Virus record (IMG/VR): IMGVR_UViG_3300018080_000240 | Location: 1-50,531 of that record | Strand: one strand, 5' to 3' | DNA: 50,531 nucleotides | From: a virus | In this document: in pieces, positions 2,005 through 36,883 of the stretch | Layout: every line of letters begins with the position of its first letter | Position numbering within the stretch: the first letter of the stretch is position 1 | Notes under the pieces: generated by a model | What the model saw: only the letters and a program-made list of their open reading frames with translations | Database searches by the model: none | What the model was told of the DNA's origin: nothing | Position numbers and translations under genes: made by a program

Positions 2005-2310
2005 ATGATAAGAAAATTCGACGACTACATTAAGTTTCGTGAATCTGAAGGTTCTGCGGACACGGGATTTGCATTCGGAAATGAAGATGATTATGAGCCA
2101 ATTAAGATCGCATGGAAGAGATACCGTGCCCGTGTAATCGACTTCTTGAAGGAGTTGGATGACCCGGAAATTGCAGAAGCACTCAACCAAGTTGAAGATG
2201 GCGGCGAGAATAAAGAGCACAGACCTAAGGGCATCGGCGATGATGATAACTCCGTGGTCGTGCCCAAATCCGATGGGAATCCCGGAATGGAAGATGGGGG
2301 CTGGGATTAA
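2005..2310 (+). CDS. Small protein with capsid-targeting-like N-terminus (101 aa)
   Basis: No domain is recognised. The first residues, MIRKFDDYIKFRE, match the pattern shared by several genes here: hydrophobic and aromatic residues spaced like the T4 internal-protein capsid-targeting peptide, then Glu. The rest is acidic, with a Gly/Asp-rich tail ending GGWD. I chose the ATG at 2005 because AAAAGGG precedes it and because a TATAAATA promoter lies about 35 bases upstream. The longer reading from 1951 would start before that promoter. Its stop codon overlaps the stop of the convergent gene at 2307 in the palindrome TTAA. A protein packaged in the head is the inferred role. Confidence 0.65.
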   Translation: MIRKFDDYIKFRESEGSADTGFAFGNEDDYEPIKIAWKRYRARVIDFLKELDDPEIAEALNQVEDGGENKEHRPKGIGDDDNSVVVPKSDGNPGMEDGGWD

Positions 2311-2654
2311 ACTATTTCGTATTCTCGCCTGAGAGTGATGTGAATTCCCGGCTCGATGTCATCAGCGGTTAGATCCAGTGGTATCACCTCTATGTCTTTT
2401 CCAGGATCTAGCCCTCTGTCCCTAGCGGCGAAAAATCTTGCTGAATCGGGATCATCTGTCAAATAAGTTCCCGGTCGCAGTGTCTTATATTCGCTGCCTT
2501 TTGGCCTTCCATGGTATAAGACGAATCTGCCGTTTGACTGAACGGGTATCTTATGTCTGCTCAGGAATTCCCCAACAGTTTCTTTGCCGTAGGCGGGGTG
2601 GTCTAAATACACTCTGTTTAGGCCACGGTTTTCCATCCAAGTCTTGAATTTCAT
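2307..2654 (-). CDS. ADP-ribosyltransferase-like small protein with capsid-targeting-like N-terminus (115 aa)
   Basis: Residues 47-50 read YHGR, and residues 62-76 contain GTYLTDDPDSARFFA. The arrangement of a Tyr-His-Gly motif, then a Gly-x-Tyr/Phe-x-Thr-Asp-Asp-Pro-x-x-Ala segment, then a beta-strand ending in a Leu-Asp pair, is typical of small phage and bacterial proteins with the ADP-ribosyltransferase/RNA 2'-phosphotransferase fold. I cannot assign a catalytic Glu with confidence, although the C-terminal RREYEIV is a candidate region. The N-terminus MKFKTWMENRG fits the capsid-targeting-like pattern. At 115 residues it is a minimal fold and may be inactive. T4 Alt and Mod, which modify host RNA polymerase, are the functional precedent. 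The target here is unknown. Confidence 0.6.
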   Translation of the reverse strand: MKFKTWMENRGLNRVYLDHPAYGKETVGEFLSRHKIPVQSNGRFVLYHGRPKGSEYKTLRPGTYLTDDPDSARFFAARDRGLDPGKDIEVIPLDLTADDIEPGIHITLRREYEIV

Positions 2655-2683
2655 TGCAATTATCTACCCGCACTAGCTATAAT
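2654..2683 (+). promoter_or_regulatory. Sigma70-type promoter TTGCAA-N18-TATAAT
   Basis: A -35-like TTGCAA at 2654-2659 and a perfect -10 TATAAT at 2678-2683 are separated by 18 bases. They lie about 50 bases before the start of the plus-strand gene at 2734. This would allow early transcription by unmodified host polymerase. Confidence 0.5.
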
Positions 2684-2733
2684 ATCCTTGGACTTAGCCG
2701 TGAGGCACGGCGCATTTATTCAAGGAGACTACC

Positions 2734-3450
2734 ATGTTGGACATGGCATTCGGTTCTATTCGTTTCCCCCGTCTCATTCACCAGGGGGAAGACTACCGTC
2801 TTAAGGCTAATTGGCCACAATTAAGCAACCCCCATCAGCCCAATGAGATACCATCTGGCTATGAGAAGAAAAAAGTTCATTTATATAGTCTGGACTGGGG
2901 CTCGTTCGATGATAGGAAGAGGGAAAAGTTCTGGGACTGGGTAAAGAAACACCATCCTAAAAACGGGGATCTTCAATATGTCCCCTCCCTCCCAGAGAAG
3001 TACACGCAAGCTATCGATGATCTTGTGTTCTGCCTGGACACCCGTTATTTGGATGAAATCCACCGTTGTTCCAGAATGGCGTTTATGGAATGGAGCCAGC
3101 AGCGGCATTTTGATACCTCTGTGCGAGACATGTGTTTGGAACCGGCCAAGGCATATGTAACTGTGGCTTTTCGATTGATTTGTGACTGCCCCTTTGATAG
3201 GGCCGCACACAGGTTCAGAGAGCATGATTGGGTAAGACGCATTGCCTCCCATGCCATGCTGTATCGATTTTGGGATGGACAAACGGGTGGTGGGTTACTT
3301 TGGGATAATGCCGAAATGGAAAAGCTCAACCCGGAGAACTGGCCTGCCGTATGGAAGCCGATGGACCCAGAAGTGGCTCAATTTTATGCAGATATGAAGC
3401 TGCACGAAGAAGAGAAGTTCGAGAAAAGCAACGTTGCTCTTGAAATCTAA
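2734..3450 (+). CDS. Hypothetical protein (238 aa)
   Basis: Family not recognised. The sequence is rich in Trp, His and Arg with mixed helices and has no signal peptide or membrane segment. A C-terminal helical acidic tail follows residue 200. Four cysteines are scattered and do not form an obvious zinc site. It starts with ATG after CAAGGAG and is preceded by a sigma70-like promoter, so it may be expressed early, unlike the head genes around it. Its stop overlaps the convergent gene's stop in CTAA at 3447-3450. Confidence 0.8.
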   Translation: MLDMAFGSIRFPRLIHQGEDYRLKANWPQLSNPHQPNEIPSGYEKKKVHLYSLDWGSFDDRKREKFWDWVKKHHPKNGDLQYVPSLPEKYTQAIDDLVFCLDTRYLDEIHRCSRMAFMEWSQQRHFDTSVRDMCLEPAKAYVTVAFRLICDCPFDRAAHRFREHDWVRRIASHAMLYRFWDGQTGGGLLWDNAEMEKLNPENWPAVWKPMDPEVAQFYADMKLHEEEKFEKSNVALEI

Positions 3451-4088
3451 TCGCCATCCCAGCCGGTTTCCCACCCTCGGGGCCCATACCTCGTGGGTGG
3501 CTTGCCGGGCGGATTGGATAAATCATGCCACCACTTCTCCGAAGATTCTCCAGGCTTAGGTCGTTTTATTTTGGGGGTCTTTGGTGGAGGTAGTGGTATG
3601 TTGAATTTATCGGGTGCGCCCAATCCGGTGACTTCTCCGGTTCTTATGATGGCGTCTTTTAGTCCTGCATACTTGAAAACCCCACCATCTCTTTGAGATC
3701 TGACATATGCCTTTTTGTCATAGGGTTCCACACTGATGATGTTCTTCTTGACTAGAAGGTCTTCGATTGCAGCTTCTAGTTCTGCGTTAAGGATAACATT
3801 GACACTGGCCCAGATTTGCCATTCATGATAAGAAGCGAAGCCACCCTCCTCAACAAACGACCACCGCCCCATCAACAGTTGTTCTACCTCGTGGAAATTT
3901 TCGGCTGCCGCTTCAACAATATCGAGTTCCCAAGCGTCGTCATCCGCTTTGGGGTGTGAAGCTGGTATTTCTTCGTCATCGAGATCATAGGCGTGCCTCC
4001 CCGAACTGTAGGCATTGACATAGAGGATGGGCAGTTGTGTTCTGCCCACGCTCTCCTCTATGAAAGTTCTGAAATTAGCCCAACTCAC
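3447..4088 (-). CDS. Hypothetical protein after portal, capsid-targeting-like N-terminus (213 aa)
   Basis: It begins with GTG inside the last codons of the portal gene (14-base overlap) with GAGGAAAT just upstream, so translation is probably coupled to the portal. The first residues, MSWANFRTFIEESVG, resemble the capsid-targeting pattern seen elsewhere in the window. The body is acidic with a helical region around residues 60-130. The C-terminal 60 residues are rich in Pro, Lys, Gly and Trp and look disordered. Position next to the portal suggests a prohead or internal head protein. The family is not recognised. Confidence 0.7.
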   Translation of the reverse strand: MSWANFRTFIEESVGRTQLPILYVNAYSSGRHAYDLDDEEIPASHPKADDDAWELDIVEAAAENFHEVEQLLMGRWSFVEEGGFASYHEWQIWASVNVILNAELEAAIEDLLVKKNIISVEPYDKKAYVRSQRDGGVFKYAGLKDAIIRTGEVTGLGAPDKFNIPLPPPKTPKIKRPKPGESSEKWWHDLSNPPGKPPTRYGPRGWETGWDGD

Positions 4089-6633
4089 TGTAGTCGATTT
4101 CCTCGTCGTCTATTTGTGAGGCGTAGTTTTGAATCTCAAGATCGTACTTCTTGATCTCTTCTTCAGATGGCGTGGCCAATACGGCTGCCGCTCCAGGCGC
4201 TCCGCCTTGCGGAGGCTGACCACCGGGTACGGGCGCACCGCCTGCTTCAGGCCCACCTGGAGGCTGCTCACCTCCTGGTGGCGGGCCACCAGGAGGTGGT
4301 TGCCCCTCCGGACCCAACATTGGGTTCGGCCCACCTGCCTCTGTGCCCATTTGTGGTTCATTTTCTTCGCCCGGCGAACCAACACCCAAGAGTTGTGGGT
4401 TTTGACCGACGATCTGAAGTTTAAGATCCTCAAGTTTCTGGATTTTATTGCGAGAAAGCATTTCTTGGACTTCATCCTCGCTGTACTTCATCCACTTGAC
4501 CAAAATGTCAAAGTCGGACATCAGCATTGAACCTTTGAGGGCATTTGCATTGTTTATTCTGTTGGTGATGATTTCTTGGAAACTCAATTCCCTCCAAGCA
4601 GAGGGGGGAGTCATCACAAGTTCCAAGTCTTCGTAATCTTCCTCAGGATACCCCCGAAGCTCTAAATGCGTTTCGGCAATCTGAAGGAGACCATCAACTA
4701 GGTTGCCCTGAAGTCTCTCAATCAGCTTGGCGAATTTCACATCCTGTGCCGACAGGGTGATCCTTGTGGCTTGAGGATCTTCGCTTGCTTGGTAGTTCTT
4801 GGGGAAGTTCAATGCTGTGTATAGCTTGTTCCTGAAATAAACAGCATCGTCGATCTCGCCCAAGTTCTGTGCGCCCGGTAGGGTTTCCACTCGGGTGTTG
4901 GCGTTGGGTCGAATGGGAATCCAGTAATCCTCATCCGCCGAGGGGGCGTGCCATCTTTCTTCGACAGCCGAGGCACCTTGGCTGCCGCTCCTTGTGTTCG
5001 CCACTTTCTTTTTGCGGAACTGATCTTTCATTCTTTCAATGAAAGCTTCGGCCTTAAATGGTGGCAATTGGCCAACATCAATGTAAAAGACTCTTCTTTC
5101 CGGCGCTCTGGTCAGTCTATAAACGACCATGGCGTCCTCCATGAGCCTCAATTGATGTGCTGGGCCACGTGCTGGCTCGATTAAAGAGACGCCATAAGGA
5201 TAGAAGGTCTTACGGTCGTCACCCGTCTTCATGTGAACCACTTGTCTGGCTGCGAACCTTAATGCGGTAGCTTGCTGCAAGTCAGCTTCGGTGGCTTGCG
5301 GTACGGGCGGGCGTGTTAGACTTTGATAGTCGGGGCCTTCGTTCGATTGTTGGAACTCAATCAGTTTCCCCTTGGTTGTCTCGATGCGATACATGCTGTC
5401 CGGTGGAAGCTCTGTCATCTTCAGGATACCATCCTTCGGACTCTCTGGATCGATAACCACCTCCAAGAAAAAGTCCCCGAAGATGCACAGTTGTTTCATC
5501 CAGTGCCATGCACGTCTGTCAAGATTGAGCATCTTGCGGTGGAAGAACAACCATTCAAGTTCTTTTTGGATCTCTTCGTTGTTGACATTCACTTCGAGAA
5601 CGTGATCGTTCTCGCCTTTTTGACAGTTGTGGTAGATTACAGATTCGCCGCAGAAGTTTTCGTGCTCTTCAACCGACAAATCATAAACGTCTTGCTCTTC
5701 CCAATCTTCCACGTGCAATACCCGGCGTCGATCTTCGTATTTGCCCAGTCGTCTGATCTCTTTGAGGGAAAACCCTTCTTGGTGAATCCACTTGTTGATG
5801 CTGTTCCACTGATGTTGCATAATCTTGGCACATTCCATGATGGACGTGCCTTCTGCTAGGATGCGACAAGCTTGATTCACCTTTTGGAGCTTTTCTTCTG
5901 TTCTGCCCAATCTCCATTCATCAATAAACTGCCGTTCGTGCTTCCACCCGTCTTTGGTTGTGTATATTCTGGGGAATTGTTGCTTGACTAGACCTTCTTT
6001 CTCATTGAAGTATCGAGCAGCGGGCAGTCGATAAAAGGGCATCAAATCTTCGCCGTACTTTAATTCTCCTGCCATCTTCCATTCCCCCGAACGCAAAAGC
6101 ATCCGGTGGTCATAGGTAACTACAAAAGTCGAACCATCATCTAATTTCACCCGAATTGTCTTGGCAGTTTTTACTTTTCGAGGATCGTAGGCCCAACCCA
6201 ACGTGTAGTCCTCTTTCTCAAAGTCCCAGCAATATACCAAGAAACGCTCTTTGGCCTTGTTGTCAGCAAACCATTTGATGGGCTGAAGCCCGTAGAAAGG
6301 TGTGGCAATTTTCATATGCCCAGCCAAACAGGATTCATCTGCGAACACCGTCATGGCCGTCTCAATCTCTGGCACATTACGCAATCGCTCGTATTCTTTA
6401 TACCGGCTTTGTCGATTGGTGACTGTTGACAAGTCGATGAAATCTTGGCTATCTCGAAGCCTGACTAGGCCCCTGCCGCCACCCCAATAGCTTCCATCTT
6501 GGGCACGAATGTCTGGCAAAGCATCTGGTTGGCTGTGACCTGCGCCCGTAAGATCTCGCATTTTCCTGAGTTTGGTCTGCGGATCTTCCTCAAAGCTGTA
6601 GGTGAATAATTTGTAGTAATCCCACCATGCCAT
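4075..6633 (-). CDS. 20: Portal vertex protein (gp20-like) interrupted by an intein
   Basis: The precursor has 852 residues. Residues 102-336 are an intein, and the spliced portal would have 617 residues, against 524 in T4. The exteins match the T4 portal layout: an N-terminal region ending in an acidic aromatic segment (TVFADES, 95-101), then helices with WHWMKQLCIFGDFFLE, the stem/crown region with the FRKKK basic loop, and a long C-terminal tail very rich in Pro, Gly and Gln. The portal forms the dodecameric DNA channel and packaging-motor dock. The ATG follows GAGGAAAAATTACT. A CCTAAATA late-promoter-like site lies 38 bases upstream. The terminase gene lies upstream on the same strand, as in T4 gene order. 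Confidence 0.88.
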   Translation of the reverse strand: MAWWDYYKLFTYSFEEDPQTKLRKMRDLTGAGHSQPDALPDIRAQDGSYWGGGRGLVRLRDSQDFIDLSTVTNRQSRYKEYERLRNVPEIETAMTVFADESCLAGHMKIATPFYGLQPIKWFADNKAKERFLVYCWDFEKEDYTLGWAYDPRKVKTAKTIRVKLDDGSTFVVTYDHRMLLRSGEWKMAGELKYGEDLMPFYRLPAARYFNEKEGLVKQQFPRIYTTKDGWKHERQFIDEWRLGRTEEKLQKVNQACRILAEGTSIMECAKIMQHQWNSINKWIHQEGFSLKEIRRLGKYEDRRRVLHVEDWEEQDVYDLSVEEHENFCGESVIYHNCQKGENDHVLEVNVNNEEIQKELEWLFFHRKMLNLDRRAWHWMKQLCIFGDFFLEVVIDPESPKDGILKMTELPPDSMYRIETTKGKLIEFQQSNEGPDYQSLTRPPVPQATEADLQQATALRFAARQVVHMKTGDDRKTFYPYGVSLIEPARGPAHQLRLMEDAMVVYRLTRAPERRVFYIDVGQLPPFKAEAFIERMKDQFRKKKVANTRSGSQGASAVEERWHAPSADEDYWIPIRPNANTRVETLPGAQNLGEIDDAVYFRNKLYTALNFPKNYQASEDPQATRITLSAQDVKFAKLIERLQGNLVDGLLQIAETHLELRGYPEEDYEDLELVMTPPSAWRELSFQEIITNRINNANALKGSMLMSDFDILVKWMKYSEDEVQEMLSRNKIQKLEDLKLQIVGQNPQLLGVGSPGEENEPQMGTEAGGPNPMLGPEGQPPPGGPPPGGEQPPGGPEAGGAPVPGGQPPQGGAPGAAAVLATPSEEEIKKYDLEIQNYASQIDDEEIDYSELG
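5626..6330 (-). mobile_element. Intein inside the portal protein (235 aa)
   Basis: The intein begins with Cys (CLAGHMKIATP, block A), has a block B with VTYDH, a block F with VYDLSVEEHENF, and ends in VIYHN followed by Cys in the extein. These are the standard residues for Cys1, Thr-x-x-His, penultimate His, terminal Asn and Cys+1 splicing. At 235 residues it is larger than a mini-intein of about 140. The extra region, about residues 110-205, shows no LAGLIDADG or HNH motif. It holds a helix-turn-helix-like segment (LAEGTSIMECAKIM... NSINKWI), perhaps the remains of a homing-endonuclease DNA-binding part. All splicing residues are present, so splicing should be active. Confidence 0.88.
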
Positions 6634-6704: not shown

Positions 6705-7298
6705 ATGAACACCGTCCTCTTTATCACAAGTCACTTAGGGGCTCGGCACAATCGCCTCGTAGCCCAACTGAATGAACACCCCCGAATCCTCATCCACAGT
6801 ATCTTGGGGACGTACAGCCACATCGGCGAGTTAGAGATGCTGGTAGCCGCTGGGCACAAGTCTCCAGGGCCGAGGGCCATTTATGGGGATCACCTGCTCT
6901 ACAATTACCAGTTCTACTTCAAGCCGTTATTGAAATGGTGCAAGTTCATCTATCTCATACGGAATCCCAAGGATGCTCTCGAAAGTATATTGGCAGAGGA
7001 AGAAGCGTACACCCCGCATACAGCGTTCAGGTATTACGCCTACCGGCTGCGGCGAATATGCGAGATGGCCAAGCGAACCCCAGGGGCGGTTCTTTTAAGA
7101 TGGCGAGATATGGTAGAGGGGGAAGCAAATACTTTGGTGCGAGACTACTTGAAGGTCAATGATCTTGATCTAAAGAAAGAATCCGCCGACGAAACGTCGG
7201 CGGATTCTGTGCCCTATGAAATCATTCGCAAAGCAGAAGACTGTTACGAACGACACTTCTATTATCTCAAGCACCTAGAGCTTCGGCGTGCCTTTTAG
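6705..7298 (+). CDS. Sulfotransferase-like protein (197 aa)
   Basis: The N-terminus VLFITSHLGARHNRLVAQL resembles the P-loop-like site that binds the 5'-phosphosulfate of PAPS. Residues 81-95 contain FIYLIRNPKDALESIL, the strand-Arg-Asn-Pro-helix motif that binds the 3'-phosphate of PAPS in sulfotransferases. Sulfotransferases move a sulfonate group from PAPS to a hydroxyl or amine. At 197 residues it is short for the family, and the first motif lacks the usual Ser-Gly-Thr. The gene sits alone on the plus strand inside the minus-strand head block, which suggests later acquisition. Its 3' end overlaps the convergent 2H gene by 24 bases and contains a strong hairpin. Confidence 0.62.
   Translation: MNTVLFITSHLGARHNRLVAQLNEHPRILIHSILGTYSHIGELEMLVAAGHKSPGPRAIYGDHLLYNYQFYFKPLLKWCKFIYLIRNPKDALESILAEEEAYTPHTAFRYYAYRLRRICEMAKRTPGAVLLRWRDMVEGEANTLVRDYLKVNDLDLKKESADETSADSVPYEIIRKAEDCYERHFYYLKHLELRRAF
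7178..7208 (-). terminator. Terminator hairpin for the minus-strand operon, embedded in a plus-strand gene
   Basis: A perfect 14-bp stem with a 3-base loop. On the minus strand it is followed by a T-rich tract (TTTCTTTAG), while the plus strand has no T run. It lies about 65 bases past the stop of the minus-strand 2H gene, so it probably ends the terminase-to-2H transcript. It is read as codons near the 3' end of the sulfotransferase-like gene. Confidence 0.65.
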
Positions 7299-7865
7299 TC
7301 TGATCCTGGTTTTCTCTCCATTTTTGGAACTGAATACGAGGTGGTCCAATTTTATTTTCTCACCCTTGAACGGGGCCATTCCAGTGTATTGGTCCGCCGT
7401 CCCCTTTTTCACGTAGGCTATCGTGCAGTGAGGTTGATACTTGGGATAGTCACTGGTGAATTCCAGACTCTCTTTTAGTCTTTTGTTGATGCGCCGAAGA
7501 TCGGGGCTGATAACGGTTATTTTGATGACATCGAATTTGGGGTTGTTGGTGAAAGCGGTTACTTCGCCTAACTCCAATACTATTGGCCTCTCCTTTTCCA
7601 CCACTTCACGAGTGCCATCTGGCTCTTCATCGTGCAATCCATATAAAACTGTTACGTGAATCTCATCTTCACGACCGAACTTCTCTCCCACCTCGTAGAC
7701 ATCCTCGTCTGCGATTTGCTCCTTCCCCCATGCGATGATCCTGTTGGAGATCCGAGTGGGCAGGTTGACCTGTGTGGAAGAGAAGTCGTACTTCACCTGG
7801 GTTTTCTCACCCCAGAAGCGTTCCCATGTCCGACTGCCCTTTAATTTGCTGGGGTATGGTGTCAT
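7275..7865 (-). CDS. 2H phosphoesterase (LigT / Acb1-like fold), 196 aa
   Basis: Two His-x-Thr motifs are present: IHVTVLYGL (His70, Thr72) and PHCTIAYV (His146, Thr148). They are 76 residues apart with a conserved pattern of strands between them. This is the signature of the 2H phosphoesterase superfamily, which includes 2'-5' RNA ligase-like enzymes, cyclic phosphodiesterases and the phage anti-CBASS enzyme Acb1 (T4 gp57B), which cleaves cyclic oligonucleotide signals. Its place in a phage makes an Acb1-like or RNA-repair role possible, but the motifs alone cannot decide. The start ATG overlaps the upstream gene by 59 bases and has only a weak GAAAG-like site, so coupling is likely. Confidence 0.75.
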   Translation of the reverse strand: MTPYPSKLKGSRTWERFWGEKTQVKYDFSSTQVNLPTRISNRIIAWGKEQIADEDVYEVGEKFGREDEIHVTVLYGLHDEEPDGTREVVEKERPIVLELGEVTAFTNNPKFDVIKITVISPDLRRINKRLKESLEFTSDYPKYQPHCTIAYVKKGTADQYTGMAPFKGEKIKLDHLVFSSKNGEKTRIRLKGTPKL

Positions 7866-8181
7866 CTTTTTTCTTTCTGTCAGCTAAATCATCTAACTTT
7901 TGTTGTTCGGCACTTATCATGTTGTCAAGAATATTGACGGCCAACTTTTGATCGTAGTCACTCACGAGCCTGCCCGTTTCCAAATCCAGCCTTTTCCTCC
8001 ATTGATCCCACGGTGTCGTTTGATCCGTTTTGGCGGCTCTTACCTCTTGTCTCTTGGTCAAGTGCCGTGCTTCGTTGAGGGCACGCATTATGTGAAGCCT
8101 TACGTCTCTGGCTCGATTATTGTCGGGCCCAATGTCTTGCAATGCCTTCTCAAGGAGGCCGATTGTTCTATGTAGGTTCAT
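7807..8181 (-). CDS. Hypothetical helical protein (124 aa)
   Basis: Family not recognised. It is predicted to be almost all helical and is rich in Arg, Lys, Asp and Leu, with a basic-acidic C-terminal half ending in KKKDDTIPQQIKGQ. I chose the ATG at 8181 because it overlaps the stop of the upstream homing endonuclease gene as ATGA, giving coupling. A start at 8208 would place the N-terminus further inside that gene. It overlaps the 2H gene downstream by 59 bases. Because it follows the endonuclease, it may originally have followed the terminase gene directly. Confidence 0.65.
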   Translation of the reverse strand: MNLHRTIGLLEKALQDIGPDNNRARDVRLHIMRALNEARHLTKRQEVRAAKTDQTTPWDQWRKRLDLETGRLVSDYDQKLAVNILDNMISAEQQKLDDLADRKKKDDTIPQQIKGQSDMGTLLG

Positions 8182-9095
8182 ATCAAATCCTTCGTCACAT
8201 GCTTCCAAGACCTGCCTTTAAGAATGTTTTCTATATTGCCAATGCTGATGTTTTTTGTGCTGGAAATATCTTTCAACTTCATTCCATTTTTTCTGAGGGA
8301 AATGATTTCTACAACATCATCTTCACACAGTTTGCTGCTTGAGTTTTTGCTACCAGTTTGGTTCCCTCTATATCTTCTTTTCTCAGTTGGAGCGTGATCT
8401 GCGACCCCTTTATTGTTGGCGATCCATTTGTTCCTGCATCTTACACAGCAAAATCTTTGCTTGGGGTAGTTTCTGAGAAACATATTGCCGCACAGTTCGC
8501 ATTTGTTTTTTGGTGCAGGCAACCCAGGCAAATCCCTGTCTAGATCTATTCCCAAATATTGCAAGTTCTTTTTTTGTAACACAGTCAGTTTGATGTTTGG
8601 GTGTTGTTTGCGAAAATTTGCAATGCGGTTTCTGTGTTTGCTTGTGAACCACCCTTTGATTTCAATATATTCATCATCATCTTCGATGTAGAAATCTGGT
8701 GTATAAGCAGATCCGTCACTTAAATTAAATGTGCGTGATTCGTATTGCCACGTTTTTTGATTTTCATTTAAGTATTCTGCGAAAGCCACTTCCCATCTGC
8801 TTCTCATGGAAACCACATTTCCATTCGGACATTTGTACCACAATCTCTTTCCGTGAATCTTGTTCTTGCCGCCAAAGTTTGGGTGGTTACTTCCTCTTTT
8901 TGAATTGCTTATTTTCCTTCTGTGCGATGCACTAAATTTTGTTCCTTTTGGGAAACCCGGTTTTCTTGCGGTGATTCCATGTCTTTTTATCCATTTACAT
9001 ACAGTGCTGATTGCACATCCCTTTAGCTCAGAGATTTCTTTTGTGTTCATGCCACACTGTACGTACAACATCTCTAGTTCTTTTTTGTCTAACAT
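8178..9095 (-). CDS. Free-standing homing endonuclease, PD-(D/E)xK/Vsr-like with NUMOD3 (305 aa)
   Basis: Domains in order: an N-terminal helix-turn-helix (1-40, CAISTVCKWIKRHG); a NUMOD3-like DNA-binding segment (50-75, FSASHRRKISNSKRG); a nuclease core (98-180) with E102, YTPDF (Asp134) and YIEIKG (Glu145, Lys147), like the Vsr/EDxHD homing endonucleases; a CxxC...CxxC zinc element (199-220); and a C-terminal helix-turn-helix (about 255-300). Such enzymes cut a homologous genome to copy their own gene. It starts 8 bases after the terminase stop. The gene is visibly AT-richer than its neighbours, consistent with recent transfer. No group I intron was identified around it. Confidence 0.82.
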   Translation of the reverse strand: MLDKKELEMLYVQCGMNTKEISELKGCAISTVCKWIKRHGITARKPGFPKGTKFSASHRRKISNSKRGSNHPNFGGKNKIHGKRLWYKCPNGNVVSMRSRWEVAFAEYLNENQKTWQYESRTFNLSDGSAYTPDFYIEDDDEYIEIKGWFTSKHRNRIANFRKQHPNIKLTVLQKKNLQYLGIDLDRDLPGLPAPKNKCELCGNMFLRNYPKQRFCCVRCRNKWIANNKGVADHAPTEKRRYRGNQTGSKNSSSKLCEDDVVEIISLRKNGMKLKDISSTKNISIGNIENILKGRSWKHVTKDLI

Positions 9096-9102: not shown

Positions 9103-11109
9103 CTAACATAACATTTGTGACATTGTATATATCAAGCTACCACCCAAAAAGAACCAGTTTATCATCCACCCAAACTCCTTAAGTAACTTTTCGTGTTTCC
9201 TGCGGAATCCAAACGCTTCCAATAGGTTGTCTTCCCGCTCGGGGATGAGAATTGGATCTTCGACATCTTCTTCCAGCCAATCTTCGGGGGATTCGTTCAG
9301 GATTTCCTCTCTAATTTTCTTGAAAGTGTCGCTGTCAAAAACCTGTGTGATTTGCTCGGGCACATCTGCGCCAATAGGAATGTCACGCATGCGGTCTTCC
9401 CTAACTACCAAGGCAATGCACAGTGCCATAATTGCATCATCGTGTTCTCCCTTGCGTGCTTCCGCCCTTTTCTTCTTAGCATCGAAAATGAATGTTTTCA
9501 ACTCCTGCACCAATCGAAGGCTGTTAATCCTCACAGTGCCATTAACGATTCGGTGTTGCATGGATTCGAGATACACTGGTCTGTTGGGTGCTGTAATCTG
9601 AACACCTGATTTGCCAGATTTAGCCTTTTTGGCTTCGTAATAGAGGTTCTCGTAAGCCAAATCATATTGAAGATTACTGGCTACGGCTCCACCAACGCCA
9701 TTATTCTCCACTGCTACCAATGCCATATTGTAATAGATTCCTATTTGGTAAACAATCTGAGCGAAGACATTAGGCGGCACGGTGTTGCTGTAAAATTCAG
9801 CGACCTGTTCCAAGTTAGCCGCATCAAGAACTTGAAAGCAGTTGTAGTCGCCATCTGCTCCCACACCTTCGGCGCAGTCAACACCGATTATGTATTCATG
9901 CCCGTCAATGGGCTCTTTCCAAATCCAAAGGGCTCCTGCATCCCACCTCGCCTGCCTTCTTTTACGTTCGCCAACTATGGGCTTCCACTCCTCGAATGCA
10001 CAGCGGAGCGGCTCCATATCTTTGGCGAATTTCTCCATTGAAATGATAATCCTGGTTGGAATATAAGTTTCGCCCGAACCAAGGAATGAACGCAGAACTT
10101 CTTGGTCCCAGCCTCGCTCACCCAAGTTTGCATAGGTTTTCTTGGCCCATTCAGGATCACAATAATCGGGGTGTTCCCAGTAGTCGATTTCAATGACGTT
10201 GAAGTCGTTTTCCCCGGCTTCGGCTTCATGGTAGATCTCTTCATACCAGTTACCGACACCATTCACTGTGGAGATGACAACGCATGAACCACCAGTGGAG
10301 ATGACTGGGTACATAGCTTTCCAGTGCGTTTGCATGTCGGGGATGAACGCCGCTTCGTCGATGATTAGAATTGTAACGGACTTACCACGAGCAGCTTCGG
10401 GCGTGTAGAACTTCAAGGCTGAATCTGTTTCAGCGAAATGCTTCTCGTGCTTGCTATCTTCGGCCAAATCAGGTTTAAGCCATGCTGGCAATTTTTCAAT
10501 ACCTCTTTTCGCCACTTCTCCTGCGGATAGGGCTTCACGGTCTGTCTTGGATAGAAGCAATATCTGCTGGTTTGTTCTGAACATACATCGCCACAAACCC
10601 CACAACACACCCGTTGTGGTCAGGCCACCCTGACGACATTTGCTGAGGATGTTAAATCTGTGAGCTTCGTAGTTTTCGATGCATCGTTTCTGGAACTTGT
10701 AAATGATGCATGGCAAAATCCCGAAGACGGGATGGAGGATCTTTACGAACCGGTGGCAGAAGTAAGAGAAACTGGTTGCGCACTTAATGATTTCCCGTTG
10801 CACCCATCGAGGGTCGTAGTCGGGATGGTCTGGATCGCCCTTGTTTTCGATTTCACTTTCGGTGAGGGTGAGATCGATGTCCAACTCGTAATCATCAAAG
10901 TCAAAGAATTGTGAATATATCTGCTCCCACTCTGGTGTGGCAACGATGTCTCGTGGTGTTTTGAAACGACCCGACGCTACTCCTTCTGCATAAAATTCGT
11001 AGAAGGGTTCCGTGGGAACCTTCACGTCGGCTTCTTGCAATCCTGGAACTTTAATTCCTGCTTCCTCCAGGATCTCATACATGCTTTTAGTGGTTTCCAT
11101 TTGATTCAT
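9103..11109 (-). CDS. 17: Terminase large subunit (gp17-like), 668 aa
   Basis: This is the ATPase-nuclease motor that packages DNA into the prohead and cuts concatemers. The ATPase domain has a Walker-A-like SKCRQGGLTTT (156-166). The usual Lys of GKT is replaced by Leu, and Lys157 upstream may serve, as in other terminases with a shifted Lys. Walker B is VTILIIDEAAF (Asp251, Glu252). The RNase H-like nuclease has GVDCAEGVGADGDYN (about 415) and KGEHDDAIMA (about 578). T4 gp17 has 610 residues. The last 20 residues here are oddly hydrophobic (NWFFLGGSLIYTM), right next to the homing endonuclease gene. It starts with ATG after AAAGGTCAGT. Confidence 0.93.
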   Translation of the reverse strand: MNQMETTKSMYEILEEAGIKVPGLQEADVKVPTEPFYEFYAEGVASGRFKTPRDIVATPEWEQIYSQFFDFDDYELDIDLTLTESEIENKGDPDHPDYDPRWVQREIIKCATSFSYFCHRFVKILHPVFGILPCIIYKFQKRCIENYEAHRFNILSKCRQGGLTTTGVLWGLWRCMFRTNQQILLLSKTDREALSAGEVAKRGIEKLPAWLKPDLAEDSKHEKHFAETDSALKFYTPEAARGKSVTILIIDEAAFIPDMQTHWKAMYPVISTGGSCVVISTVNGVGNWYEEIYHEAEAGENDFNVIEIDYWEHPDYCDPEWAKKTYANLGERGWDQEVLRSFLGSGETYIPTRIIISMEKFAKDMEPLRCAFEEWKPIVGERKRRQARWDAGALWIWKEPIDGHEYIIGVDCAEGVGADGDYNCFQVLDAANLEQVAEFYSNTVPPNVFAQIVYQIGIYYNMALVAVENNGVGGAVASNLQYDLAYENLYYEAKKAKSGKSGVQITAPNRPVYLESMQHRIVNGTVRINSLRLVQELKTFIFDAKKKRAEARKGEHDDAIMALCIALVVREDRMRDIPIGADVPEQITQVFDSDTFKKIREEILNESPEDWLEEDVEDPILIPEREDNLLEAFGFRRKHEKLLKEFGWMINWFFLGGSLIYTMSQMLC

Positions 11110-19841: not shown

Positions 19842-20023
19842 TTAGAGGCCCCCTTTTTCATCTTCTTTTTAGACCAGCCGACAGGGGGTTTGTCGTCATT
19901 GCTGTAGTGCGGGAAAGCGTTGGTTCCCCGTTCCAAAGGATTAAGACGAGGGGGAGTTAGCCCGCCGCCCACGCCACCGGTTTGCCCCACTTCTATTAAC
20001 CACGTCTTGAAAGATAACTTCAT
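19817..20023 (-). CDS. Small basic protein with capsid-targeting-like N-terminus (68 aa)
   Basis: It starts MKLSFKTWLIEVGQ, one of the clearest cases of the shared N-terminal peptide in this window. It continues with a Gly/Pro-rich linker and a Lys-rich tail (WSKKKMKKGASKCAKTK). That layout, a tag plus a short basic body, resembles small internal head proteins. The ATG at 20023 follows AGGAG. A CATATATAG promoter-like site directly upstream is shared back-to-back with the plus-strand gene at 20045. It overlaps the glycosyltransferase start by 25 bases. Confidence 0.65.
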   Translation of the reverse strand: MKLSFKTWLIEVGQTGGVGGGLTPPRLNPLERGTNAFPHYSNDDKPPVGWSKKKMKKGASKCAKTKSG

Positions 20024-22708: not shown

Positions 22709-23758
22709 ATGGCTGTTGATTTCGACCGCTTTCTCGATTGGGTGGAAAATCGATTTTCTACCGTACAGGTCAAAGGAGATGAAATCAAGATTGATTCCAT
22801 CTTCGCCGAAGACACTAAACAACACATGTGGTGCAATCCTTACGGTGGTAAACACAATCGGGAGAACGGCGTATTTCACTGCTGGAAAACTGATAAATAT
22901 GGCAGCCTCGTCACACTGGTGATGATGGTCGATAAGTGCAGTTACGAGGAAGCCCTTGAAATCCTCGACACTGGCGATGCGACCATGATGCAATTGGAGC
23001 GGGAACTGGACCTGTTCCTGAATGAAAAATACTACTCGGACAAAAAGACGGAAGAAGAGGCGAAGCCCCTTGAAGAGCGAGCAAAAGGGGGGTTGCCGCC
23101 ACACACCCACCTCATTGCCGACTTGTCACCCAATAATCTCCATCGAGTCCAGTCTGAGGTTTATATGTTCGGGCGGGGTCTTGACACGAAAGGTCTTTAT
23201 GTCTGTACGGCTGGAAAATATCGCAACCGCATCATCATCCCATACTACGACCGGGAGGGAAACTTAATCTACTGGAACGGTCGCTACACCGGTAACCGCA
23301 AGGACATTCTTCGCTATCAAGGCCCCGACAAGGACGAATTTGGGGTCGGCAAGGACGATGTGATTTTCACTCCTGAATGGCCCCCTCTAGGTGCGAGGCT
23401 TCGCTTGACTGAGGGCGAGTTGGATGCTTTAACTTTGAAATTGGCGGGAATGGCGAGCGGGGCATTTGGCGGTAAAAATCTCTCTGATCCACAACTGGTG
23501 ATGCTCAAAGGATACAGAATTACGCTTTGCTTGGACAATGACGAGGCGGGCAAGTATTCACTGCCAATCATGGGTAACAAGCTCAAAGCGTGGGGATTCG
23601 CCGACGTGCGATACGTGCGCCCGCCCGTGCAGTACAAGGACTGGAACAAGATGCTGGAAAGCACTAGTGCCAAGTTGATCGCCGCCTATATTCGCAGAAG
23701 AGAAAAGCCCTACACTGCATGGACTGGCGAGGAGATGGTTATCGAACAAATCCACTAG
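22709..23758 (+). CDS. DnaG-type DNA primase (349 aa)
   Basis: The N-terminus contains a reduced zinc-binding domain with Cys42, His49 and Cys58 and the WCNPYGGKHN segment, as in CHC2 primases. The Toprim domain has LTEGELDALTL (Glu235) and CLDNDEAGK (Asp276, Asp278), the metal-binding acidic residues. It makes RNA primers for lagging-strand synthesis. At 349 residues it is close to T4 gp61 (342). The ATG at 22709 follows GGGAG. The gene is divergent to the RecB-like nuclease, and the helicase must lie elsewhere. Confidence 0.87.
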   Translation: MAVDFDRFLDWVENRFSTVQVKGDEIKIDSIFAEDTKQHMWCNPYGGKHNRENGVFHCWKTDKYGSLVTLVMMVDKCSYEEALEILDTGDATMMQLERELDLFLNEKYYSDKKTEEEAKPLEERAKGGLPPHTHLIADLSPNNLHRVQSEVYMFGRGLDTKGLYVCTAGKYRNRIIIPYYDREGNLIYWNGRYTGNRKDILRYQGPDKDEFGVGKDDVIFTPEWPPLGARLRLTEGELDALTLKLAGMASGAFGGKNLSDPQLVMLKGYRITLCLDNDEAGKYSLPIMGNKLKAWGFADVRYVRPPVQYKDWNKMLESTSAKLIAAYIRRREKPYTAWTGEEMVIEQIH

Positions 23759-24434
23759 ACCAAGCTCTCAGTTGCTCTTCAGCATCTTTTCTTGAAGCAC
23801 CCATAACGGTTTTGACCGCTTTGTCTCTGGGAATGCCTCTTTTGATCGCCATTTTGATGAGTCGATCACGCTCGTATTTGTCGAAGTCTTGGTCGGTGGT
23901 TCCGTATGGGGTGGGAGGCAATTCACCATGTCTTTTCAGGAATTTCATTAAAGCGGTGCCCCGAATGAAGGCGTCCCCTCCAGCAGATTGAGCATAGTAG
24001 TCTCCTGGTTCTGCACCTACGGGCGGGTCTTTGTATGCCCACTTCATATCATCTGGATCATATTGATCGTAACCATCCTCCCATTCATCGTGATCGGAGT
24101 CGTCGATGATCTTCACCAGGAGGCCGTGGTTCCTGATGTCGGTTGCCGTTACATCATGAAAGCCTTTGTTGAGCTTTTTAGAAATGTGGTGAATCATGGC
24201 GTTGACCGCTTTGCCGATTTCGGGCTTATCGGTCATGAAGATGACGGCTTCATCTTCATCCGGCTCTATACCCGCTGCGGAATACTCGCTGCCATACATA
24301 TCTTGAACGAACGGGCCCATAGCGCCATGCCAACCCCCTTGAAGGCCGTATTTTCTTATGGAGTCTTCATAGTCCACTATGGTTCCATGGTACAGACTCT
24401 TCTCCTGGAGGTTTAGCCATTGTTTGAAGTTCAT
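23739..24434 (-). CDS. ADP-ribosyltransferase-like protein with capsid-targeting-like N-terminus (231 aa)
   Basis: After the tag MNFKQWLNLQEK come LYHGT (14-18) and a helix ending RKYGLQGG. FMTDKPEIGKAVNA (66-79) is a Phe-x-Thr-Asp-x-Pro segment like the ADP-ribosyltransferase/Tpt1 fold. The first motif matches the NAD-binding Tyr-His-Gly-Thr of many toxins and of RNA 2'-phosphotransferases. The C-terminal helical part (150-231) may bind a target. T4 Alt, packaged in the head and injected to modify RNA polymerase, is the closest functional model. It is last of four overlapping genes, and its ATG overlaps the preceding stop by 4 bases. Confidence 0.65.
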   Translation of the reverse strand: MNFKQWLNLQEKSLYHGTIVDYEDSIRKYGLQGGWHGAMGPFVQDMYGSEYSAAGIEPDEDEAVIFMTDKPEIGKAVNAMIHHISKKLNKGFHDVTATDIRNHGLLVKIIDDSDHDEWEDGYDQYDPDDMKWAYKDPPVGAEPGDYYAQSAGGDAFIRGTALMKFLKRHGELPPTPYGTTDQDFDKYERDRLIKMAIKRGIPRDKAVKTVMGASRKDAEEQLRAWSSGFVR

Positions 24435-24742
24435 TTCTTTTTGTTTTTGGCATGTTTTTCACATGGCTTATCTGGTCTACAACCGCAGCTTTTCTTGGAT
24501 CTCATATCAGGCGCTTTGATACCTGCTTTTCGGGCGGCATCAAAGTGAACTCCGCTGCTTCCAAACACACCCTCTTTCTTCGGTTCGCATTTTTCGCAAG
24601 TCTTGTTGCCAATACACCCGCAAGGCTTGGGTTTTCTGGCGGCTTTCTCTTCCCGGTCTTTTTTGTGCCATTGCACATATTGAAGTGCTGCTTCAGAGAG
24701 TTCCGGATCTTCTTGTTCTAGGTAATCTAAAAAATTTCTCAT
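24431..24742 (-). CDS. Cys-rich protein with capsid-targeting-like N-terminus (103 aa)
   Basis: It begins MRNFLDYLEQEDPE, fitting the shared N-terminal pattern. Two similar Cys clusters follow: CGCIGNKTCEKC (about 42-53) and CGCRPDKPCEKH (about 87-98). Both have CxC-x5-CxxC/H spacing and look like small zinc knuckles. The rest is Lys-rich, ending in KNKKK. It overlaps genes on both sides by 4 bases (ATGA) and is thus coupled within the operon. The role is unknown; a zinc-binding internal protein is possible. Confidence 0.7.
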   Translation of the reverse strand: MRNFLDYLEQEDPELSEAALQYVQWHKKDREEKAARKPKPCGCIGNKTCEKCEPKKEGVFGSSGVHFDAARKAGIKAPDMRSKKSCGCRPDKPCEKHAKNKKK

Positions 24743-25203
24743 GATTGTTCCTTGTTTTTCATTTTAAGCATAACAGCGTAAGCGAGCGGTCCCATACCGT
24801 TAGGTCGGGACATGCGCTTCACTTTTTGTGCTAATTGGAATGGGGTTAATGTGGCGATTTCATCTGGCGAAGGGCCCATGGCCTCTTCCAGGGGCAACTC
24901 TTTTTCGGCTGCCCACTCCTTGAATGTCTTTAATTTACCCTTTTTTTTCTTCTTTTTTGGCTTGTCTTCGTCCTTGAATTTTTTCTTCTTCTCGGGCACC
25001 TTGCCTTTGGTGGTGTCTTTGTCTTTCTTCTCTTTGTAGTGCCACTCAGCACCTTTTTTATGTTGTGCCCAGGCGATGGCGTAGGGGTTGAGCTTTCCAT
25101 CCTTTCCCTCGGGGTCGAACTTGTCGCCATGTTTCTTTATCATAGCTCGAACACTCCCGGAACTTCCCGGTGGAGCGACTTCGTTTATTTTTTTCTCATC
25201 CAT
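24739..25203 (-). CDS. Lys-rich two-part protein with an internal capsid-targeting-like segment (154 aa)
   Basis: Residues 1-60 hold a segment with KLNPYAIAWAQHKKGAEWHYK, a motif of small phage proteins with NP-(Y/W)-A-(I/L)-AW. A highly basic Lys-rich linker follows (KKKKKGKLKTF). After it comes KTFKEWAAEKELPLEE, which matches the capsid-targeting pattern but lies inside the protein. No ATG, GTG or TTG codes that point (the Leu is TTA), so it is not a second start. The start TGATG overlaps the previous stop. It may be a fusion of two small genes. Confidence 0.7.
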   Translation of the reverse strand: MDEKKINEVAPPGSSGSVRAMIKKHGDKFDPEGKDGKLNPYAIAWAQHKKGAEWHYKEKKDKDTTKGKVPEKKKKFKDEDKPKKKKKKGKLKTFKEWAAEKELPLEEAMGPSPDEIATLTPFQLAQKVKRMSRPNGMGPLAYAVMLKMKNKEQS

Positions 25204-25433
25204 CAGTCCAAAAACCCCGCACGTTTCATGTGATCTGCTAAATTGGCTAACGCCTCCCATCCGGAACCACCAGTGGCAGATGTGGTGAGCCCCATGCCTG
25301 AGAGATACCGGTCGTCCGCAGGTTTGCCATCCAACTCGGCAATCTTGGCCATCCACAGTTCTTGGCCACCTTCCACTACTACAGTTACAGACGTTTTCTC
25401 TTGTTGTTCTCTGAACTCACGGAAACTCTGCAT
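25203..25433 (-). CDS. Small protein with capsid-targeting-like N-terminus, first gene of operon (76 aa)
   Basis: It starts MQSFREFREQQEK after GGAGG. The remainder has an acidic-hydrophobic half and a Gly-rich patch (GLTTSATGGSGWEAL), then an amphipathic helix (ALANLADHMKRAGF) at the end. No family is recognised. A late-promoter-like AGTAAATA lies 21 bases upstream of the ATG and would drive all four coupled genes down to 23739. Confidence 0.7.
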   Translation of the reverse strand: MQSFREFREQQEKTSVTVVVEGGQELWMAKIAELDGKPADDRYLSGMGLTTSATGGSGWEALANLADHMKRAGFLD

Positions 25434-33688: not shown

Positions 33689-33694
33689 GATGGT

Positions 33695-35432: not shown

Positions 35433-35436
35433 TGCA

Positions 35437-36060
35437 TCAGAAGATAAGTTTCAACACTTCTCCTTGTGGAAACATTTTTTCGTAAAGCCTTGTGCCCACG
35501 CCTGTGGGCACAAGGCTTGTTTTGATGCCCGCAACTCCTGCTTGGAACAGGGCTTCGTTTTCCACCCCAATAACCCAGCCGCATGACTTAACGTCCGGGT
35601 CTACAACCGGATGGTAGCCTTTAGTGCGGGCCATTCGCTTAATGCTTTCTGTTTGCTCCCCGCTGAGCGATTTAACTGGCAAATCGCCATTGGGGAATAT
35701 TCCACATTTTTTGATTTCTGAATTGATTGGCTGTGGTGGCGACAGGTGGGAGAGCAAAAGGCTTGATTCTTGTAGCAACCCCCAAATGGGATGTTCTGCG
35801 GGAGTTCCTTTCAATTGTCTGATATAGGCAAACTCTCGTTTCTTTTCTTGGATGTTGGAGGCTGGGATGATTCTTTCTTGTCCCCTTACTAAATAAGAGA
35901 GATGGTCGGGATAGCAGATCCACACCTGGATTCCGGGAAGTTCTTGTTCGATTGCTGGTCGCAGATAAAGCAGTTGAACAATGTATTCTCGGTGGCTTCC
36001 TGCGTAAGATATGCAATACCTATCTTTAATTTGGGCATATTGAGGAAATGGAAATGCCAT
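35437..36060 (-). CDS. Possible GT-B-like glycosyltransferase (207 aa, uncertain)
   Basis: Residues 120-190 (GIFPNGDLPVKSLSGEQTESIKRMA... WVIGVENEALFQAGVAGIKTSLVP) follow the C-terminal GT-B pattern of a Gly-rich loop, a Lys, a helix and an E-x-x-x-x-Q-A-G-x-A-G-I-x-T motif that binds a nucleotide sugar. The N-terminal half (YCISYAGSHREYIVQLLYLRPAIEQELPGIQ) fits the first Rossmann domain. Total length is only about half that of a usual GT-B enzyme, so it may be reduced or a related fold. A 15-bp hairpin (35485-35518) lies within its last 30 codons. Confidence 0.5.
   Translation of the reverse strand: MAFPFPQYAQIKDRYCISYAGSHREYIVQLLYLRPAIEQELPGIQVWICYPDHLSYLVRGQERIIPASNIQEKKREFAYIRQLKGTPAEHPIWGLLQESSLLLSHLSPPQPINSEIKKCGIFPNGDLPVKSLSGEQTESIKRMARTKGYHPVVDPDVKSCGWVIGVENEALFQAGVAGIKTSLVPTGVGTRLYEKMFPQGEVLKLIF
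35485..35518. other. Perfect 15-bp hairpin inside a coding region
   Basis: 15-bp stem with 4-base loop GCCT, inside the last codons of the GT-B-like gene. The plus strand has GTTTTG after it and the minus strand a mixed sequence, so terminator function is uncertain. It may insulate the divergent structural gene's promoter or protect RNA ends. Confidence 0.55.
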
Positions 36061-36295
36061 GAAAAGTAACCTGCGTAATATACGTGATTGCCAAGAAACA
36101 ATGGGTGCCTTTTTTCAGCAATTCGGCAACCCTGACGTTCATACTAAAGTAGTGTTAGAAGAGTTTTTCAAGGAGCTATATGCGAGACGCACCAACAAGC
36201 AGGCTGTATTTGTATCTGGCGAGGCGAGACAAGAAAGAGATAAAAGTGCTGACAACATTTCAGGGCCATGCGGTTCCCCCGACACGAGTCCGTGA
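36059..36295 (+). CDS. Small helical protein (78 aa, uncertain)
   Basis: The ATG sits in the four-base palindrome CATG, where it overlaps the divergent gene's ATG by two bases, and GAGGAAAT lies just upstream. The first 45 residues look like a genuine amphipathic helix. It overlaps the next gene by 116 bases, and after residue 40 the sequence (SGEARQERDKSADNISG) could be a shadow of that gene. Either both are real with a long overlap, or only the second is. Confidence 0.4.
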   Translation: MKSNLRNIRDCQETMGAFFQQFGNPDVHTKVVLEEFFKELYARRTNKQAVFVSGEARQERDKSADNISGPCGSPDTSP

Positions 36296-36578
36296 TGTGA
36301 AGCATCTGGGTCTCCCTCGGGAATTAACCGCTAAGTTGAGCCAAGAAATTCATGAAGATCGTCTTCTGTGGGAGCCTTGGGTGGAAGCAGCGGATTCTTT
36401 TGAGCAACTGCGAGAATCTCTGAAAAAAAGAGGGTACAAGGCTCCTCGTCGTTCTAAGTCTAGGTTTGCACCTGAGGGTCTAATTGAAAGCAACGTAAGG
36501 GGTTTGGATAAGATCGCCCCTTCTCCTCGAACACAAACCAACAGAATGCCCATCAGGAAGACCATGTTGGGCGGTTAA
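36180..36578 (+). CDS. Hypothetical basic protein (132 aa)
   Basis: AAGGAG precedes the ATG at 36180 by the best spacing in this region. The protein is basic, with a beta-rich start (RLYLYLARRDKKEIKVLTTFQGHAVPPTRV) that looks like a small folded domain, a helical middle, and a Pro, Arg and Lys-rich tail (KAPRRSKSRF, RTQTNRMPIRK). The family is not recognised. Its stop overlaps the convergent gene at 36575 in TTAA. Confidence 0.7.
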   Translation: MRDAPTSRLYLYLARRDKKEIKVLTTFQGHAVPPTRVRDVKHLGLPRELTAKLSQEIHEDRLLWEPWVEAADSFEQLRESLKKRGYKAPRRSKSRFAPEGLIESNVRGLDKIAPSPRTQTNRMPIRKTMLGG

Positions 36579-36883
36579 GCTTTTCGCACGTAGCATCGAT
36601 GGATGTTGAATGAGCCTCCATCTACCTCAATCAAGAAGGTTTTGTCGTCCACATCAATGATGGTTCCGCCATCTTCCATGAATCGTTCTGCTAGGTCTTC
36701 TGCAACTCCTTCGTTGGCATCCATTTTAGCCAGTAGTCTTTCAGTGTCTATTTTGGATTCGACAGCTACGCCAACGAAGGGTTTGGGTCGTCGTGTAATG
36801 CCACTAGGTTCATCGGATGGGTCTTGATTCCTCATCCATTTCTTAAAGTGTTCAAGTGAGAATCTATGCTCTTTATAATCCAT
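36575..36883 (-). CDS. Small protein, weak capsid-targeting-like segment near N-terminus (102 aa)
   Basis: Residues 8-18 (FSLEHFKKWMRN) partly fit the shared N-terminal pattern but start seven residues later than in the other tagged proteins. A compact domain follows (VGVAVESKIDTERLLAKMDANEGVAEDLAERFMEDGGTIIDVDDKTFLIEVDGG), with alternating helix and strands, of unknown family. It overlaps the upstream gene by 11 bases (ATGGATTATAA contains both start and stop), so translation is coupled. Confidence 0.65.
   Translation of the reverse strand: MDYKEHRFSLEHFKKWMRNQDPSDEPSGITRRPKPFVGVAVESKIDTERLLAKMDANEGVAEDLAERFMEDGGTIIDVDDKTFLIEVDGGSFNIHRCYVRKA

Follow-up and report, generated by a model that had tools for sequence, protein, structure and literature searches.

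A short N-terminal leader resembling the T4 capsid-targeting sequence probably marks a set of head-loaded proteins in an uncultured T4-like phage

Introduction

Why should many small viral proteins with unrelated bodies begin alike? The question is raised by the IMG/VR virus record IMGVR_UViG_3300018080_000240, a genome fragment that was analysed over its entire length of 50,531 bases (hereafter the window). A preliminary description of the window listed seven proteins opening with one short aromatic peptide and read it as a capsid-targeting leader. Start codons could be confirmed for all seven N-termini (2005 and 21104 on the forward strand; 2654, 20023, 24742, 24434, and 25433 on the complementary strand). 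The analysis revealed that the leader matches the head-loading tag of phage T4; the proteins bearing it probably form a kit that enters the cell together with the DNA.

The window encodes a T4-type (gp20 type) portal protein (4075–6633, complementary strand; PHROG 213 match, E 3.7e-76) and a large terminase (9103–11109, complementary strand), which was the query by which relatives were found. The terminase relatives included contigs of up to 527 kb and the named record LR756511.1 (595 kb), the terminase of which was 47.7% identical to that of the window; for cultured T4-like phages the identity was about 28% among the matches listed. Based on the portal and the terminase kinship to huge contigs and LR756511, the window is a piece of an uncultured T4-like phage that is probably huge.

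Seven relative contigs (G004, G006, G007, G008, G020, G009, and G012) and 395 kb of LR756511 were used for counting; the contigs are fragments, and the counts include related contigs and members of one family, which are not independent. Genes were predicted using a codon-usage caller (57 genes in the window) in place of a hexamer caller, which was overfitted and missed small genes (29 window genes). Stretches were called singly, by which genes spanning 20-kb borders were lost, and G006 60001–64278, G008 120001–122654, and 200 kb of LR756511 lay outside the counts, as did stretches of several control phages.

Pattern of the leader and its correspondence with T4

The leader approximates K-[TSN]-F-x-x-[WFY]-L-x-E. 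In a logo of 121 dereplicated N-termini anchored on Phe (position 0), Lys was enriched 3.4-fold at −2, and Thr, Ser, and Asn were enriched 4.8-, 3.4-, and 2.8-fold at −1. Behind Phe, the logo consisted of Lys at +1 (4.0-fold), Glu or Gln at +2 (4.0- and 3.9-fold), Trp, Phe, or Tyr at +3, Leu at +4, and Glu at +5 (4.0-fold), +6 (2.7-fold), and +8 (3.2-fold). The search pattern fixed columns 0, +3, and +4 only, and the remaining columns are independent of it.

According to the available part of PMC9026906, the first 10 residues of IPIII are enough for packaging, and the T4 leader depends mainly on residues 4 and 7 for targeting and on residues 8 and 10 for processing. These four residues correspond to leader positions 0, +3, +4, and +6, and both targeting residues are present in the leader (Phe at 0, [WFY] at +3). 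Two scans of 243 called T4 proteins produced five matches: ipII, ipIII, 61.1, and one 87-aa protein by regular expression, and ipI and 61.1 by profile (gene names as in the T4 record). The T4 gene 61.1 (18966–19130), annotated as hypothetical, starts with MKTFKEFIKED and received a profile score above that of ipI.

Frequency of the leader in the window, relatives, and control phages

The regular expression F..[FWY][LMI] was searched within residues 2–15 of called proteins of at least 50 aa. In the window it was present in 6/56 proteins, compared to 4/962 internal 14-mers and 3/260 14-mers following an internal Met. The primase (22709–23758), the start of which is kept in relatives, and the protein at 17660–18091, with a hydrophobic signal-like start, were rejected as false positives, leaving 4/56 (P 9e-5). 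Raw counts in the relatives were 15/167 (G004), 7/77 (G006), 13/177 (G007), 8/147 (G008), 6/142 (G020), 20/286 (G009), and 8/132 (G012). Both raw and after the filter, all seven contigs exceeded their own internal rate, the weakest being G020 (P 0.008). LR756511 gave 22/680, 3.7 times its internal rate.

Raw counts in the control phages were 2/243 in T4, 1/147 in SPO1, 0/103 in phiKZ (100 kb), 1/148 in CBB, 1/149 in Syn9, 4/325 in phiM12, 4/266 in P-SSM2, 4/257 in Atu_ph07, and 9/321 in KVP40. No enrichment of the motif could be observed in SPO1, phiKZ, CBB, or phiM12. KVP40 was the sole control clearly over its internal rate by regular expression, and the profile described below matched 2/321 of its proteins.

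The profile was a position weight matrix built from 84 dereplicated N-termini of the relatives, with the window excluded from training and the threshold set at 99.9% of the null. Primase-like starts were excluded from the training, as well as from the logo and from the TANATA and Shine-Dalgarno counts given below. Six of 57 window N-termini scored over the threshold against 0.06 expected, namely those of the genes at 23739, 2307, 19817, 24431, 25203, and 3447; two starts (2005 and 3447) were set by hand for this count, and the raw calls give 5/56. A motif built from N-termini, the kind of check that the preliminary description had proposed, thus picks out window proteins when trained on relatives alone. 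Scores were weaker for 21104 (p 4e-3) and 2005 (p 7e-3), and starts that were not counted score alike (primase, 3e-3; 36873 and 25971, 7e-3); 21104 and 2005 were retained as members because their orthologs keep the motif. By raw calls, the profile matched 5/56 proteins in the window, 14/167 in G004, 5/77 in G006, 11/177 in G007, 9/147 in G008, 7/142 in G020, 25/286 in G009, 13/132 in G012, and 25/680 in LR756511, with 2/243 in T4; the counts of all but the window are not independent, as those records joined in the training.

Tagged proteins of the window

The top-scoring tag belongs to a 231-aa protein (23739–24434, complementary strand; MNFKQWLNLQEK...), which carries an LQE site and has a tagged homolog in L085 with 46% identity in the best segment. 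The adjoining gene (24431–24742, complementary strand) codes for a Cys-rich protein of 103 aa (MRNFLDYLEQEDPEL...) with LSE at residue 15; a protein adjoining the portal in G004 (MRNFNDFLEEIDPEL) resembles it by eye, with no BLAST match at 1e-3. A 76-aa protein (25203–25433, complementary strand; MQSFREFREQQEK...) has VVE at residue 19 only. The small Gly-rich protein of 68 aa (19817–20023, complementary strand; MKLSFKTWLIEVG...) carries an LIE site. It has look-alikes of 59–78 aa; those of 59–74 aa in L004, L031, L035, L040, L044, L091, and L096 share with it a tag, a Gly-rich stretch, and often AF..Y; BLAST at 1e-3 was passed by the L004/L005 copy only.

On the forward strand, 21104–21577 encodes a 157-aa protein (MKFHEYCLMREAM...) with an RF-1 (GGQ) domain, in agreement with the GGQ hydrolase named among the bodies in the preliminary description, and its ortholog in L024, bearing MRSFQEYVVLREAM, is also tagged. 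The first 11 residues of the 115-aa protein at 2307–2654 (complementary strand) are MKFKTWMENRG. Beyond the seven proteins first listed, the profile found a 213-aa protein with a GTG start (3447–4088, complementary strand; MSWANFRTFIEES...), which overlaps the end of the portal gene and carries an IEE cut-type site. Also additional to that list is a 196-aa Acb1/2H phosphoesterase-like protein (7275–7865, complementary strand) with a Trp variant of the tag, RTWERFWGEK, at residues 12–21, which is kept in its orthologs.

Two members are doubtful. The 102-aa protein at 36575–36883 (complementary strand; MDYKEHRFSLEHFKKWMRNQD...) has a displaced FKKWM at residues 13–17, kept in close orthologs, and the 154-aa NEVAPPG-type protein at 24739–25203 (complementary strand) has an internal KTFKEWAAEKE, its G007 ortholog starting with MVQSLVEWIEEN.

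Head gene cluster and predicted cut site

A gp21-type protease (PF03420, S77) could be identified in 5/6 and 16/20 relative records, 21/26 together. The gene order in the relatives was portal, small opposite-strand protein, protein of about 600 aa, protease, protein of about 300 aa, and capsid; in one relative, the capsid matched phrog_138 and the protease phrog_207. The protein of about 300 aa is a putative scaffold, placed as such by position only; its sole PHROG match was weak and to a family of unknown function. The small protein after the portal is tagged in most relatives (the start called in G007 is without the tag). In the window it corresponds to the 101-aa protein at 2005–2310 (forward strand; MIRKFDDYIKFRES...), located between the portal and a 614-aa protein, and the sole invariant column among 18 sequences of its family is the Phe of the motif.

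Sites of the form [LI]xE were over-represented in three products of this cluster, with observed/expected ratios of 2.11 in the scaffold, 1.91 in the protease, and 1.41 in the capsid, compared to 0.96, 1.12, and 0.90 for the mirror pattern E.[LI]; the ratios in all proteins were 1.17 and 1.20. FLNEA was present in 11/17 distinct capsid N-termini, and [LIM]xE occurred within 16 residues in 16/17 of them, compared to 671/2524 proteins generally. Among the tagged N-termini, 63/121 contained [LIMV]xE, compared to 2038/9393 (21.7%) matched internal windows, and Glu peaked at +6, the T4 spacing, and at +8. The site lies directly behind the motif in 19817, 21104, and 23739 of the seven proteins first listed, and also in 3447. 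An LxE excess in the family of the 614-aa protein was rejected as evidence, since the mirror was equally raised (1.88 vs 1.84). Because the excess is shared by the scaffold, protease, capsid, and tagged N-termini, (L/I)xE is the probable cut motif of the protease of this clade, and a predicted site of this kind is offered by about half of the tags.

These observations bear on the strongest rival, that the peptide addresses proteins to another place, such as the membrane, the replication compartment, or the host RNA polymerase, and not to the prohead. A leader that is amphipathic and aromatic could have different binding partners, and an LxE site is missing from about half of the tags. Set against this are the position-by-position match to the T4 capsid tag with recovery of ipI, ipII, and ipIII, the conservation of a tagged protein inside the portal-protease-capsid cluster, and the LxE enrichment common to scaffold, protease, and capsid. 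Another address is thus unlikely.

Separability of the leader and the proteins behind it

The leader is present or absent on copies of the same body. The protein at 2307–2654 was 58% identical over residues 11–114 to a homolog in G027 (L262), the N-terminus of which is longer, different, and untagged; G027 is a 38 kb record with no S77 match. Within the Acb1-like family, the N-terminus is tag-like in many relatives (MKTWQQFLQEK, MSFKQFLVNE, MEFKQFLDDK), and other relatives have no such start. For the RF-1-like homologs of L251, L255, and L261, a start near the GGQ domain is possible, while the proteins of the window and L024 carry a tagged extension in front of it. In two cREC proteins, the first profile position of the Pfam domain falls at residue 14 or 15, directly after the tag.

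A Pfam scan was conducted on 118 tagged or tag-like proteins (117 tagged, minus 8 dropped by eye, plus 9 orthologs or variants including 2005, 7275, and 21104). At most 35 matched, in 22 families of no more than three members each, and at least 83 were without any Pfam match. The earlier statement that differing bodies stand behind one shared peptide therefore held, the families being unrelated. The named bodies included the Acb1/2H phosphoesterase at 7275–7865 (Acb1, 32.8 bits against a cut-off of 27; 2_5_RNA_ligase2 slightly higher, 34.4), cREC, HAD_SAK_1, CCA/poly(A) polymerase, RF-1, ART-PolyVal (L127:18943–19296), and a SAM lyase (L147:5301–5987), with DnaJ appearing in the family tally alone. 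CCA-type and HAD_SAK_1 genes, both tagged, lie at most 2 kb apart in G007, G009, and LR756511. A sigma-70 factor with regions 2 and 4 (L014:8900–9556) has the tag-like N-terminus MMDFRDWL and is possibly injected. Judging from the family names, the targets of many bodies would be nucleotide signals, damaged RNA, restriction, or transcription, which fits immediate-early effectors.

The ADP-ribosyltransferase label given earlier to 2307 and 23739 could not be upheld, as neither had an ART Pfam match at E ≤ 10. The structure model of 2307 (pLDDT 65.7) found no PDB fold match at E ≤ 0.001, and that of 23739 (pLDDT 44.9) was too poor for a fold search. Scans of viral contigs with 23739 and 7275 revealed no relatives; the scan, based on exact short peptides, is insensitive, and BLAST finds relatives.

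The same data address a second rival, in which the tagged proteins are paralogs, or carry a small N-terminal domain from one ancestor, with no role in targeting. Some families are indeed orthologous between relatives. The logo, however, persists in the 121 entries dereplicated by body, the bodies belong to unrelated Pfam families, and the 58% identical body in another virus record is untagged, which makes common descent a very improbable explanation.

Promoter-like element near the start codon

The element TANATA starts 13–9 nt before ATG in 29/79 tagged genes of the first eight contigs, compared to 54/1103 other genes (P 6e-16); the 79 still include signal-like starts. At −40 to −21, no excess was seen (12/79 tagged vs 151/1103 others). 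The element and its position were chosen after viewing these contigs, and LR756511 was used as the hold-out. There, TANATA occurred in 10/22 tagged genes compared to 28/658 (P 3.5e-8), with the −40 to −21 control also somewhat raised (5/22 vs 46/658, P 0.02). In G006 it was present in 0/7 tagged genes. The numbers in the window are small, with 1/5 tagged genes vs 2/51 (P 0.25) at this position and 2/5 vs 1/51 (P 0.02) at −20 to −14.

Among tagged genes with TANATA, 38/39 were without a Shine-Dalgarno motif. Over the window, L012–L021, L118–L154, and L231–L250, 121/1862 genes had TANATA 9–13 nt before ATG, and 108/121 of these lacked a Shine-Dalgarno motif; the gene caller favours such motifs, and these counts are not neutral. 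TANATA resembles the T4 late promoter TATAAATA. The exact sequence upstream was rejected as the element, showing a weak excess only at 7 or more of 8 positions (13/79 vs 83/1105) and none at 8 of 8 (0/79 tagged vs 6/1105 others). In CBB, ATAAATA precedes structural genes, as reported in the available part of PMC5259590.

TANATA at the start codon was found 0 or 1 times in T4, KVP40, phiM12, Syn9, and SPO1, and in T4 and Syn9 it lies mostly 35–26 nt upstream. P-SSM2 had 9 in 288 genes, so that huge phages are not alone in having the arrangement. The position points to late mRNAs that are nearly leaderless, and the element is a candidate for a class of leaderless late promoters in huge T4-like phages, found most often on tagged genes.

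The weakest rival, that the N-terminal bias arises as a side effect of how translation starts on leaderless or late mRNAs, draws on the enrichment of tagged genes for TANATA near ATG without a Shine-Dalgarno motif, and is the least credible of the three given that 50/101 tagged genes have a Shine-Dalgarno motif and no TANATA, the Phe codon varies in position, Trp, Phe, and Tyr alternate, and 82 untagged genes also have TANATA.

Neighbouring genes and further observations

The 614-aa protein of the head cluster (17–1861, complementary strand) starts with MKRKLI.YDVF and had no PHROG match. It is kept between portal and protease, directly upstream of the gp21-type protease gene in the relatives, as 29 distinct sequences. 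The PHROG match of the portal begins at residue 341 yet at profile position 92. This suggests that a few hundred residues, perhaps intein-like, are inserted in the portal, and portal lengths in the relatives ranged from 831 to 1260 aa. Directly after the terminase gene lies a 305-aa protein (8178–9095) that looks like a homing-type endonuclease, and similar-looking genes occupy the same place in L022 and L023. A 1550-aa protein (37736–42388) with many PTSIHINTP-type repeats is probably a fibre.

In Atu_ph07, ten neighbouring genes (L155:39484–49507) start with M[KR]W..L[TNI]E, a different leader with an LxE site. The cluster holding them is rich in virion proteins according to the available part of PMC6102473, and the ten may be mere paralogs.

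Proposed mechanism and its weighing

In the proposed mechanism, the amphipathic leader, with two aromatic residues three positions apart, Leu, and Glu, would bring each late protein, once made, to the core of the prohead and dock it there. As the head matures, many leaders would be cut at (L/I)xE by the gp21-type protease, and the bodies released in this way would ride in the head and be injected along with the DNA. Many bodies with no kinship to one another (anti-CBASS-like nuclease, cREC, RNA repair, RF-1-like, SAM lyase, sigma factor, and many unknowns) would have received the tag, and the injected kit would act prior to any phage gene expression. Docking, cutting, packaging, and injection are what we infer for the tagged proteins, and we hold with good confidence that, in this mechanism as a whole, the peptide targets proteins to the capsid as the leaders of the T4 internal proteins do. 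We lean only slightly towards the wider proposal of a modular injection programme in huge T4-like phages, in which one leader, often with a late promoter at the start codon and hence a nearly leaderless mRNA, is grafted onto a broad set of exchangeable effectors that pre-empt defence before the first transcript.

Several observations tell against this interpretation. The virion content of this clade is a prediction from sequence. The capsid-targeting claim of the preliminary description finds good support in the positional identity with T4, the recovery of ipI, ipII, and ipIII, the protease and head cluster of the relatives, the LxE enrichment, the tag being on some and off other copies of a body, and the late-type promoter elements; the 50.5-kb window fragment itself had no gp21 protease match. 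Chance matches to the regular expression occur, the filter having removed 6/105 over the window, the seven contigs, and LR756511. Although phiM12, Syn9, P-SSM2, Atu_ph07, and CBB have an S77 protease, the strict motif is little or not enriched in them. CBB, a T4-like jumbo phage for which virion mass spectrometry has been published, was examined in two of its eight 50-kb stretches (100 kb): the profile placed 0/148 proteins over threshold, and N-terminal LxE was only weakly more frequent in virion proteins (7/14 vs 9/43 others, P 0.04), membership being compared in one 50-kb stretch. No BLAST orthologs were found for 3447, 24431, and 25203. Lastly, 58/121 tagged N-termini were without LxE in the 14 residues examined, and 2005 and 2307 had no LxE-type site in 24 residues. 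The tags lacking a cut site are not fatal to the capsid-targeting interpretation, because T4 mutants show that targeting is possible without processing (available part of PMC9026906).

If the interpretation is true, the leader marks injected proteins by sequence alone in giant phages that are uncultured and hence beyond the reach of virion proteomics, and the injected effector set could be read straight from metagenomic sequence. The mostly Pfam-less proteins would become ranked candidates for early anti-defence or takeover factors, and Acb1-like proteins, SAM lyase, cREC, and RNA repair enzymes would be predicted as pre-packaged cargo in these phages.

Comparison with known systems

The novelty relative to the known T4 mechanism lies in scale, cargo, and promoter. 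No report of such tags in huge or jumbo phages was found in a literature search whose coverage mostly left out subscription journals. The tagged proteins are like the T4 internal proteins in leader length, in the aromatic-x-x-aromatic-Leu/Ile-x-Glu spacing, in having unrelated bodies behind one leader, and in belonging to a kind of phage that encodes a gp21-type protease, known here from the relatives. The ip genes of T4 number three, whereas 4–10% of the called genes per contig pass the profile here (the window alone being independent of training). Unlike in the T4 internal proteins, Trp is the commonest second aromatic residue, a second Glu spacing (+8) is common, recognisable enzymes occur as bodies, and for many of the genes a promoter-like element sits directly at the start codon. 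The available text of PMC12373910 states that the ip genes of T-even phages have long been found by their leader, that at least 10 occur in related phages, and that T4 Ip2 and Ip3 block type IV restriction. T4 Alt, a head-packaged, injected effector cut by gp21 (PMC9026906, available part), is alike as a proposed head-borne effector, and no Alt homolog was identified here.

Sets of head-packaged ejection proteins together with a prohead protease have been described for phiKZ and SPN3US (PMC5694885, PMC10052503, PMC7411985, and PMC9026906, each as far as available). Unlike this clade, phiKZ had the motif in 0/103 proteins over 100 kb and no S77 match by the model used. Polyvalent proteins, in which ART and other conflict domains are injected with the phage DNA (available part of PMC7824862), are large and multidomain, whereas in this clade the domains stand in separate proteins, each of them tagged.

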